A stretch of DNA of 64,000 nt, taken from positions 62,001-126,000 of the forward strand of contig NZ_JAKMAJ010000008.1 in the NCBI RefSeq assembly GCF_022378355.1, given 5' to 3'. Each line of letters opens with the position of its first letter. Positions within the stretch are counted from its first letter, which is position 1. The translations under genes and the position numbers were made by a program. Under the pieces are notes generated by a model. The model searched no databases. It was not told the DNA's origin and saw only the letters and a program-made list of their open reading frames with translations. The stretch is from Brenneria bubanii (GTDB taxonomy: Bacteria > Pseudomonadota > Gammaproteobacteria > Enterobacterales > Enterobacteriaceae). Shown one piece after another: positions 45,128 to 51,423 of the stretch.

Positions 45128-46906
45128 CTAGCGCTCAGACCGGCTGGACAGATTGGCGGCGCTGACCGCCAGCACCGACAGGATGCTTAATGCGGCGGCG
45201 GGCGCCAATACGCCCCAGCAGGCCCGCTCGATATACGGCATGCCTTCCGCCAATACGCGGCCCCACTCCGGGGTGGGCGGCGATGCGCCTAATCCCAGAA
45301 ACCCCAGTGAGGCCAGCGCCAGCGCGATGCCCGGCAGACGCAGCATGGCATGGCGGAATAACGGCCCGATCAGCGCCGGTAACACGTAAAACAGGCTGCG
45401 GCGCACTGGGCCAACGCCGATGATCGGCAACAGGCGAATATAGGGACGCGCGCTAATTTCAGACACCTGTGCCGCCGTATGCGCCGCCAGCGGCGCCCAA
45501 CTGACCGCGGTGACGGCTATCGCCGCGCCGGTAGCCGTCGGGCCGTTGATCGCCGCCACCAGCAGGCCGGCGATCACTGCGGGCAAGGCATTGGCGACTT
45601 CAATCGGGCCGATAAACAGGCGCGGGAACACACCGATAAACAATCCAATCGCCAGGCAGGCCAAAGAAACCATGAATGCCAATATGCAGGTGTTCAACGT
45701 GCCGTGAGCGACGCGGGCCAGCAGATCGCGCCCCATGGCATCGGCGCCGAACGGCAGCGCAAAAGAGGGCGGCTGCAGACGGAGAAACGCGGACGAGTAC
45801 GGATCCCGCGGCAGTCCGGCGATCAGTAATACGATTAACAGCAGCAGACAGAGCAGCGGCAGCCAGACGGCATAACGCGATACCGCAATCTGATTTTCTT
45901 CCGGCACCGGCATCGCGCCATGTTTCAGCGCACGGCCAAGGAGCAGCATTCGCGTCCCGGCGGCGGCCATGCCGGCGAGCGACGCGATAATCAGTAGCAT
46001 CAGCACGCCAACCTGCAGCGCCGGCAGGTCCTGCGCCGCCGCCGCGCCCAGCGTAGCGCGGCCCAGCCCTGGAATGGCGAACACTTTTTCTACCGCGATG
46101 GCGCCGCCGGTCAAGGAGACCAAAACCAGCCCCACCAGCGGCATCACGCCCGGCAACGTGCGCTTCAGCACCGCCAGCGCGATATGCCGGCGACCGATTC
46201 CCGCTACGTTCCAGGTCGTCAGCCAGCTTTCGCTAAAGGTCGCCGACAGCGCATCGGCGAGAATGCGGCCCAGATAGCCGCCGGCCGGAATGCCCAGCGC
46301 CAGCGCCGGTAATACCGCGTAGTGCAGCCCATTCCAGCCGTAGGGCGGGAACCCTTGCAGCCAGACCGCGCCGACAATCAGCAGGAAGGATGCCAGCAGA
46401 AATTCCGGCAGCGCGGTGAACATGGCGGCAAACAGCCCGCTTGACCGGCGAACAGACCCCCGCAATCCCTGGCGAAACGTGTTGGCGCTCAGCAGCGCCG
46501 CCAGCGAAAAGGCCACCAGCGCCGCCGATGCCATCAGGGTCAGCGATACCCCGGCGGCCTGCAGCATTCCCGGCAATACCGGGCGTCCCGAAACCCAGGA
46601 ATTTCCCGCGTCGCCGCGCAGTAAGCCGCCGAGCCAATTCGCCAGCAGTTGTAACGGGCCCTGATCCAACCCCAACGACTGGCGAATGGCGTTCAAGGTT
46701 TCCGCCGTGGCTTCCTGATCGCCGGAACGGGCGCGCAGCAAAGCCAGCGCCGGATCCTGCCCCGATAGCCACGGCAGCACGCCAATCAGCGCGATAATCG
46801 CCGCCAGCGTCAGCAGGCGGGAAAACAGCGGTGCCGGGATTCCGCTGCGGGGATACCCCGAGCGTCCGATCCTGGCGCAGGTACGGCAATACAAGGTTTC
46901 GCTCAT
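45128..46906 (-). CDS. Fused double permease of a DppBC/NikBC-type ABC importer
   Basis: One 592-residue polypeptide holds what are normally two proteins. Residues 20 to about 330 resemble DppB/NikB (ALLRARSGDQEATAETLNAIRQSLGLDQGP periplasmic part, EAA-like loop, AVEKVFAIPGLGRATLGAA). From about 340 to the end they resemble DppC/NikC (FALPFGADAMGRDLLARVAHG, PTPEWGRVLAEG). Such importers take up peptides, nickel or metal-opine complexes. It is the last gene of the operon, 33 bp after the binding protein. The N-terminus has an odd YCRTCARIG segment, so the true start may lie slightly downstream. Confidence 0.82.
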   Translation of the reverse strand: MSETLYCRTCARIGRSGYPRSGIPAPLFSRLLTLAAIIALIGVLPWLSGQDPALALLRARSGDQEATAETLNAIRQSLGLDQGPLQLLANWLGGLLRGDAGNSWVSGRPVLPGMLQAAGVSLTLMASAALVAFSLAALLSANTFRQGLRGSVRRSSGLFAAMFTALPEFLLASFLLIVGAVWLQGFPPYGWNGLHYAVLPALALGIPAGGYLGRILADALSATFSESWLTTWNVAGIGRRHIALAVLKRTLPGVMPLVGLVLVSLTGGAIAVEKVFAIPGLGRATLGAAAAQDLPALQVGVLMLLIIASLAGMAAAGTRMLLLGRALKHGAMPVPEENQIAVSRYAVWLPLLCLLLLIVLLIAGLPRDPYSSAFLRLQPPSFALPFGADAMGRDLLARVAHGTLNTCILAFMVSLACLAIGLFIGVFPRLFIGPIEVANALPAVIAGLLVAAINGPTATGAAIAVTAVSWAPLAAHTAAQVSEISARPYIRLLPIIGVGPVRRSLFYVLPALIGPLFRHAMLRLPGIALALASLGFLGLGASPPTPEWGRVLAEGMPYIERACWGVLAPAAALSILSVLAVSAANLSSRSER

Positions 46907-46939
46907 GACGGGACTTCACACGTTACGGTCATTCGTTCC

Positions 46940-48454
46940 TCATTCCGCTGTTTTAGCGGCAACGAGCCGGGTGGCGCTATTAATCAGCGCGCGTTCGCGC
47001 GGATCGCGCAACGCATCGGCCACCTGCGCGCTTTCTCCCTGAATAACGCGTTCATGCAGCATCGGGATGGCGGCATCGCTGGCTAAAATCAGATTTTCCG
47101 CCCGCATCACCGCCTGGCGGCGTTCATCGCCCGCCGGAGTGGCGGCGGCCTGCTGCAACGCCCGATCAATCTCCGGCCGGCACAGCTGGGAAATATTAAA
47201 CGAGCCTTCACAGGAAAAGTCACTGTAGAGGTAGGCGACGGGATCGCCGGAGTCCAGCACCGTCGCCCGCGACAGGATGAACGCGTCGAATTTGCCGGCC
47301 AGCGCATCGGATTCAATTTGCGCATATTCGCGCACCACCTGTTTTACCGTGAAGCCGGCGGCGCTGAGCTGCTGCGCCAGATAGACCGCCACTTCGGGCA
47401 GTTCTGCGCGATCGCTGAAGGTGGCCAGCGTAATGCTGACGCCGTTGGGTAACGCGGCCGGAGTCGGGGCGGCGACCGGTCGGCGCAGCGCGGCGGCCCA
47501 GGGCAGCGCCGGGCCCAGCAATCCCTGAGCGACGTCCGCCCGTTTTTCATAAACGTTATCCACCAGTTGCTGCCGGTTCAGCGCATCACGCACCGCCGCG
47601 CGCAGCGCCGGATCTTTCATCGGACCCTGACGGGTGTTGAGGTAAAGCGTATTGGTGCGCGGCATGGGGACTTCATGCACCAGCTTCTGATCCAGCAACG
47701 GCGCCTGTGATACCGGGATCGCCTCCACAATATCCGCGCTGGCGGTACGTAATGCGGCGGCTCGCGCCGCGCCGTCCGGCACAAAGCTGACATCAATGCC
47801 GCTGGCCTGGGCCTTGTCGCCCCAATAACCGTCGAATCTATCCAGCGTAGCGCCGCTGGTGCCGTTCACGCGGCGAAGCACAAAGGGGCCGCTGCCGGTA
47901 TTTTGCGGGTTGACCACGCCGTTGGCGCCATAAGCGGCGGTGGACAGAATAGCCAACTGCGGGCTGGACAGGCGCTGCGGGAGCAAGGGATCGGGGGTGG
48001 CGGTTGATACCATCACCGCATTCTCGCCGTCAGCGGCGACGGTCAACTGGACGCCGTCGAGGATACGGGGTTTCGGCGCGGCGGTCGCGGCGACGCTGAG
48101 CGCCTTGACCACCGTTGCCGCGTTCAACGCGCTATCGTCATGGAAACGAACGTTCGGACGCAGTTCGAAACGCCAGGTTTTGTCATCGATTTGCCGCCAG
48201 CGAGTGGCCAGCGCCGGTTGGGCCTCGCCCAGTTTATCAAGCACCACCAGCGTTTCCGCCGTACTCCAGCGCGACAGTTTAAATGCGTCATCACTCAGCG
48301 GCGTCAGCCCGGAACGCGGCGGTTGCAGCATCGCCAGTTTCAGGCGGCCATGCCCCTCTGCGGCCGGTTTTTCCTCCGGCGCGTTGAAGCAGCCTGAAAG
48401 TAGCAGGGTGACGCAAAGTAAAGCCGAAAGCGGCGGTAAAAGGCGAAAGTTCAT
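46940..48454 (-). CDS. ABC importer binding lipoprotein (DppA/NikA/CntA family)
   Basis: A 504-residue family-5 solute-binding protein. The signal peptide ends with a lipobox, LLSGC, giving lipidated C22. Family segments include FELRPNVRFHDDSALNAATVVKALS, GSGPFVLRR and ALNRQQLVDNVYEKRADVAQGLL. Ligands of the family are peptides, nickel, or opine metallophore complexes. It lies 8 bp after the MFS gene. With a Zur-like box at the operon head, a zinc-chelate ligand is the leading idea. Confidence 0.85.
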   Translation of the reverse strand: MNFRLLPPLSALLCVTLLLSGCFNAPEEKPAAEGHGRLKLAMLQPPRSGLTPLSDDAFKLSRWSTAETLVVLDKLGEAQPALATRWRQIDDKTWRFELRPNVRFHDDSALNAATVVKALSVAATAAPKPRILDGVQLTVAADGENAVMVSTATPDPLLPQRLSSPQLAILSTAAYGANGVVNPQNTGSGPFVLRRVNGTSGATLDRFDGYWGDKAQASGIDVSFVPDGAARAAALRTASADIVEAIPVSQAPLLDQKLVHEVPMPRTNTLYLNTRQGPMKDPALRAAVRDALNRQQLVDNVYEKRADVAQGLLGPALPWAAALRRPVAAPTPAALPNGVSITLATFSDRAELPEVAVYLAQQLSAAGFTVKQVVREYAQIESDALAGKFDAFILSRATVLDSGDPVAYLYSDFSCEGSFNISQLCRPEIDRALQQAAATPAGDERRQAVMRAENLILASDAAIPMLHERVIQGESAQVADALRDPRERALINSATRLVAAKTAE

Positions 48455-51377: not shown

Positions 51378-51408
51378 TATCACTGCATATCACCATTGCA
51401 TTTCGTTA

Positions 51409-51423
51409 TGTAATAACATAACA
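51409..51423 (-). promoter_or_regulatory. Zur-type box upstream of the ABC/MFS operon
   Basis: TGTAATAACATAACA differs at a single base from TGTTATAACATAACA, the core shared by the two strong Zur boxes at 34.6 and 35.2 kb. GTTATG and CATAAC (51405-51410 and 51417-51422) also form an inverted repeat. It lies where the operon promoter should be. Confidence 0.68.

Follow-up and report, generated by a model that had tools for sequence, protein, structure and literature searches.

The locus considered here raises the question of what an importer may carry when its genes appear to respond to zinc supply. It is an operon on the minus strand of a 64,000-nucleotide stretch of the genome of the plant-associated bacterium Brenneria bubanii (contig NZ_JAKMAJ010000008.1, positions 62,001 to 126,000; hereafter the window), in which five intact open reading frames are closely packed between positions 51383 and 45128, with gaps of -4, 6, 8 and 33 bases from 5' to 3'. 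They encode, in this order, two ATPases, a carrier of the major facilitator superfamily (MFS), a binding lipoprotein and a one-chain permease. A comparison of orthologous operons makes control by Zur very likely, and we consider it fairly probable that the operon encodes a Zur-repressed cluster-C importer of the ATP-binding cassette (ABC) type for a metal, likely zinc, held by a small chelator which is foreign or made elsewhere. The features are as follows.

51404..51423, minus strand: two overlapping Zur-like boxes (51404-51418 and 51409-51423), putative operator of the operon
50574..51383, minus strand: ATPase 1, NikD/OppD-like, GTG start, ABC_tran; best model TIGR02770 NikD, 181.7 bits (cut-off 318.7)
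49729..50577, minus strand: ATPase 2, NikE/OppF-like, ABC_tran; best model NikE, 182.4 bits (cut-off 354)
48463..49722, minus strand: MFS carrier, exporter-like, MFS_1; nearest model MdtH, 133.5 bits (cut-off 469)
46940..48454, minus strand: solute-binding lipoprotein of family 5 (cluster C); SBP_bac_5, 195.8 bits, above cut-off
45128..46906, minus strand: one-chain permease of 592 aa, a NikB/DppB-like half joined to a NikC/DppC-like half

The box at 51409-51423, TGTAATAACATAACA, differs by one base from TGTTATAACATAACA, which stands at 34580 and 35151 of the window, as a first-pass annotation of this DNA had noticed. The pattern GTTATNNNATAAC with at most one mismatch has seven matches in the window against a shuffle mean of 1.08, and none of 100 shuffles reached seven. 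A stricter-looking 15-mer with up to three mismatches gave four matches, a count equalled by 3 of 100 shuffles, so that the window on its own lifts the box no more than moderately above chance, and the assignment is carried by comparison across genomes. Scans for promoters (2 sites versus 2.3 by chance, none on the operon strand) and terminators (12 sites versus 8.0 by chance) were not informative.

The comparison took in forty loci, namely the window, L033, L034 and L050, together with 34 family genomes and two plasmids. The 34 genomes were those fetched from 37 with the importer, leaving out the window's own genome, G292 and G368. The region searched began 200 bases before the first ATPase gene and ended 40 bases into it, with dinucleotide shuffles as control. 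The Zur core was matched at 12 or more of 14 positions in 37 of the 40 orthologous operons, while only 9 of 4000 shuffles got there; the three misses were L050 (11), L168 (11) and L183 (10). Since close relatives are found among the loci, these boxes represent fewer independent events than 40. On the other hand, the neighbourhoods of the operon differ widely between loci, and retention of the box despite this variation counts towards Zur control. Among 371 other upstream stretches at the 34 family loci, nine reached 12 positions; six of these were the operon's own box and the remaining three lay upstream of one DksA-like and two AztD-like genes (the one AztD-like protein scanned scored 121 bits, below the cut-off of 400). 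The Zur control proposed in the first-pass annotation is thus supported by comparison, and we regard it as very likely.

The genome holds one Zur and one Fur, the zur gene matching PRK11639 at 316 bits (cut-off 167; G000:C6). The exact core TGTTATNNNATAAC was found at ten places in the genome, including this operon. Six further cores were assigned to znuA/znuCB, an Azt-like system, DUF1007-NicO, a pair which we take from its sequence to be rpmE2-rpmJ2, a DksA paralogue and a FecE-FecB-FecC-like set; those at C7:84492, C9:27904 and window 34580-34594 have no assigned gene. The Azt-like system is a second zinc-type ABC system, whose binding protein has AztC as its best model (272.7 bits, cut-off 350). 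With one mismatch allowed, the core has 93 matches genome-wide versus 74 for a reversed control pattern, so that by itself the loose pattern is weak evidence.

Two of the loci behind exact Zur-like cores deserve description in their own right. Zinc-binding DksA has four cysteines; the DksA paralogue at window 35151-35627 (plus strand; 118.8 bits, cut-off 115.5) has a C-terminal part with one cysteine at that four-cysteine site. The FecE-FecB-FecC-like importer (L114, 6159-8980, on G000:C10) is not accompanied by a receptor gene in the list of frames. Its FecE shares 46% and its FecC 41% identity with the counterparts adjoining an opine dehydrogenase in Saccharothrix. Relatives of this FecB importer were found in 51 of 392 family genomes, 13 of them among the 37 with the present importer (Fisher p 0.0002, uncorrected for kinship, so that no inference was drawn from this co-occurrence).

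What kind of transporter does the putative operator precede? All components of a cluster-C importer were found above Pfam cut-offs, namely SBP_bac_5, two BPD_transp_1 domains on a single chain and two ABC_tran proteins. Reading frames and Pfam domains thus bear out the five-gene operon first described, and domain and model matches support its assignment to the Opp/Nik class. BPD_transp_1 matches two stretches of the permease chain; residues 34-307 match Opp1B/NikB models and residues 368-578 match Opp2C/NikC models. The lipoprotein cysteine C22, which follows LLLSG, is invariant across 32 aligned binding proteins (alignment A1: the window, 30 of 39 frames and one plasmid row; the nine omitted frames are seven close relatives of retained rows and two fragments). 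The predicted structure of the binding protein has a mean pLDDT of 89, and its nearest named relative found, in Brenneria sp. hezel4-2-4, is 87% identical (tblastn).

The permease fusion had been described as uncommon for this class. We searched the permease halves apart and then read the junction frame, which was continuous at 42 of 42 loci; the fusion is instead the rule of this clade. An earlier count (38 frames) required a single match covering 85% of the chain and was rejected because this favours fused chains; the corresponding alignment A2 comprises the window, 29 of 38 frames and one plasmid row. At L165, L183 and L184 the permease is in one frame at the junction and broken elsewhere, and these are operon copies decaying in one genus.

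The MFS gene is less constant, being present in the operon at 17 of 40 loci and preceding the first ATPase gene in Enterobacter BIGb0383. In a binding-protein tree built by a quick method with SH-aLRT support only, 14 MFS-bearing rows fell in one 16-row clade (SH-aLRT 96) whose other two rows have no MFS gene. One gain plus losses is the simplest account of this single clade. The four-gene importer is the core and the MFS exporter a later addition. Other carriers occur downstream of the permease. A Bcr/CflA-type MFS gene lies near it at L154, L158, L166, L165, L171, L183 and L184, in four genera whose operon has no MdtH-like gene (one protein scanned), and could be linked or part of the genomic backbone. 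At L155, L167 and L177, all of one genus, a carrier gene, EamA-like by its sequence, lies 64-132 bases downstream.

The binding protein was found (E at most 1e-60) in 37 of 392 family genomes, covering 19 of 154 genera, and the operon is carried at 11 Pectobacterium loci. It was also present in 521 of 72,556 plasmid records, 479 of them from Klebsiella and many of them near-copies of one plasmid type; the copies on pLVPK (NC_005249) and pK2044 (NC_006625) are 78% identical to the window protein. The five genes on the virulence plasmid pK2044 have the same order as in the window. A Fur-family repressor gene, whose product has Zur as best model (84.8 bits, below the cut-off of 167), is located together with hisI and zigA 3.6-4.6 kb from the operon. 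The latter two are divergent from the repressor gene, and zigA (701.7 bits, cut-off 600) is on the strand opposite to the operon, at a distance of about 4.6 kb. Boxes matching 12 of 14 positions are found upstream of the operon as well as in the interval that separates hisI from the repressor gene. Some part of this 12.1-kb stretch matched 946 plasmid records, of which 482 contain 80% or more of the stretch at a single location. Spread, constant box, fixed fusion and plasmid copy are the real findings of this analysis. In Saccharothrix (L049, 5447-14003) two divergent pairs of binding protein and fused permease occur with two ATPases; identity in the binding protein is 63% and 47%, and the clade thus extends to Actinomycetota.

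No literature on this exact operon was found among the matches listed. Haas and colleagues had marked a Zur-regulated cluster on pLVPK (PMC2770081), a plasmid of the type that carries the 78%-identical copy; the text consulted treats COG0523 and zinc-enzyme paralogues and names no ABC transporter. The closest precedent is Pden1338-1344 of Paracoccus denitrificans, a Zur-controlled cluster-C ABC operon induced 8-16-fold in zinc shortage, for which the authors call direct Zur control somewhat unusual and assign no substrate (PMC5387054). The likeness lies in Zur-type control of a Ni/dipeptide-type ABC transporter. In contrast, the Paracoccus permease is split into two proteins, a single ATPase is listed, and the operon includes a COG0523 gene but, in the table consulted, no MFS gene (PMC5387054). 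The present operon consists of five genes only, with no COG0523 gene among them, and 64 distant or control loci gave no COG0523 match. Pseudomonas PA2911-PA2914 and PA4063-PA4066 are reported to bring pyochelin-cobalt into the cell and out of it under Zur regulation (PMC11481552). They share with the function proposed for our locus the Zur-regulated transport of a metallophore, with synthesis genes elsewhere, and differ in a siderophore-type importer with TonB receptor, a MacB exporter and the reported pyochelin-cobalt cargo (PMC11481552).

Is this, then, a staphylopine-type system? The first-pass annotation had equated the gene set with CntA-CntF plus CntE. Model matches for CntA (40.4 bits, cut-off 800), CntC (44.2, 440), CntD (162.2, 380) and CntF (161.2, 385) fell far below cut-off, and the CntB and CntE models were not among the matches listed (25 of 44 families). 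Kinship by membership is not supported by these sequence matches. The reported absence of local synthesis genes holds genome-wide for the two genes searched, since the opine dehydrogenase model and a CntL protein query, both with matches in the positive control genome G321, found nothing in this whole genome. The CntL query replaced Pfam NAS (PF03059), which was rejected as an insensitive test; its silence is no usable negative because it was also silent in Saccharothrix, whose opine dehydrogenase has a CntL-like frame as its neighbour. In its features as a class, a dipeptide-type ABC importer plus an MFS exporter, the operon resembles Cnt, and in a published survey the importers of opine-zincophore clusters are either dipeptide-type or FecCD, and the exporters MFS, EamA or MatE (PMC7438024). 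It differs in having no synthesis genes, a one-chain permease, an optional MFS gene and Cnt scores far below cut-off. By analogy, the operon can still work like a staphylopine-type system.

Nickel-type transporters provided the nearest models for the binding protein, both permease halves and the ATPases. The binding protein scored 176.3 bits with Opp5A_nikA (cut-off 600) and 85.6 with NikA (cut-off 393), and its nearest solved relatives by profile include the nickel binders 3t66 (155.5 bits) and SaNikA (124), with DppA at 95.6. Clustering with nickel binders had been named in the first-pass annotation as an outcome that would speak against its proposal: nickel-type models are indeed nearest, yet the membership cut-offs were not reached, and the suggested search against CntA and NikA left both below cut-off. 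An importer of nickel or cobalt complexes substituting for zinc is consistent with this ranking, and with the Zur-regulated import of pyochelin-cobalt in zinc shortage reported for Pseudomonas (PMC11481552). We hold it to be unlikely, because all nickel models stayed under cut-off and the neighbours and co-regulated genes are zinc-response genes. Compared with NikABCDE/Opp5A, the operon also has a fused permease, and its Zur box presumably takes the place of nickel control.

A peptide or histidine importer under Zur control, supplying amino acids or zinc-binding peptides when zinc is short, appears similarly improbable. The family 5 fold is common to the binding protein, DppA and GsiB-type proteins; D401 aligns with DppA D408, R349 adjoins the R355 column, and hisI is found near the plasmid copy. 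However, the DppA model gave only 61.3 bits against a cut-off of 1005, nickel-type proteins score higher, and a constant Zur box would be unexpected if the cargo were ordinary nutrient peptides. Comparing folds did not discriminate between substrates and was rejected as a guide to them.

Least probable is a shuttle for the cell's own zincophore of an undescribed type, with unlinked synthesis genes and the MFS carrier as exporter: a carrier within the Zur-controlled operon of MFS-bearing lineages and the joint presence of fused-permease importer and CntK/L/M-like cluster in Saccharothrix, on different contigs, would suit it, but CntM and CntL occur once each among 392 family genomes, in the same genome and without the importer, and no synthase-like neighbour was seen by eye, other chelator pathways not having been searched for. 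Opine dehydrogenase was not found in the genomes of eight of nine relatives, the exception being Saccharothrix, whose CntK/L/M-like frames are accompanied by FecCD-type importer genes. Neighbour clusters common to at least two genera, judged by eye at 34 loci, consist of chromosomal backbone plus the Bcr/CflA-type MFS gene, with no synthase-like gene seen.

Import of a metal complex is the likely function, and the chelated-zinc importer proposed at the outset is supported by several observations. The operon's Zur-like core also marks znuA/znuCB, the Azt-like system, DUF1007-NicO, rpmE2-rpmJ2 and the DksA paralogue; zigA, hisI and a Zur-like repressor gene neighbour the pK2044 copy; nickel binders rank ahead of DppA among solved structures; and the Paracoccus operon and the Pseudomonas pyochelin-cobalt pair offer precedents. 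As suggested by the conserved boxes, zinc-bound Zur would block transcription from the operator at 51404-51423 in zinc-replete cells and would leave it in zinc shortage, when the operon would be expressed. The lipoprotein may then capture a divalent metal, most likely zinc, complexed with a small organic chelator, and the one-chain permease with its two ATPases would carry the complex into the cytoplasm, where the metal could be freed. In MFS-bearing lineages the emptied chelator, or excess complex, may be pumped out. As the operon makes no chelator, this would come from the surroundings or from unlinked genes; possible outside sources are plant nicotianamine-like molecules, metallophores of other microbes, and histidine.

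Peptide/nickel ABC genes fall within the KEGG quorum sensing class. Deletion of zur in P. odoriferum changed a set of genes in which the KEGG classes ABC transporters and quorum sensing were enriched (PMC10298282), which fits derepression of the operon.

Further genes were noted around the operon. Upstream, on the minus strand at window 51501-55766, another operon encodes an arylsulfotransferase of 597 aa fused to a thioredoxin domain, as well as an ATPase of SsuB/TauB-like kind and a second permease in one chain, which contains two SsuC-like domains. Of 13 loci from Brenneria, Pectobacterium and Samsonia, all but L042 have this operon upstream of the importer. Directly downstream of the permease, L161, L164, L173, L174 and L186 have a gene like that at window 35771-37231, which is presumably an AMP nucleosidase; in the window the two are about 8 kb apart, with genes for transport, an aminotransferase, a dehydrogenase and IclR among those in between.

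Annotated only as an ABC or peptide/nickel transporter, the operon seems to belong, as a conserved element, to the response to zinc shortage in 19 of 154 sampled genera. Should chelated zinc be its cargo, it would be a route apart from ZnuABC and the known opine zincophores, and a role would be assigned to a plasmid segment, so far uncharacterised, of a type that matters in the clinic. More speculatively, and with less than even confidence, the one-chain-permease clade could be a mobile, general zinc-piracy system using foreign chelators, kept on Klebsiella virulence plasmids, with the exporter of some lineages returning the emptied chelator. The operon may thus represent an unstudied way of taking up zinc bound to small molecules.

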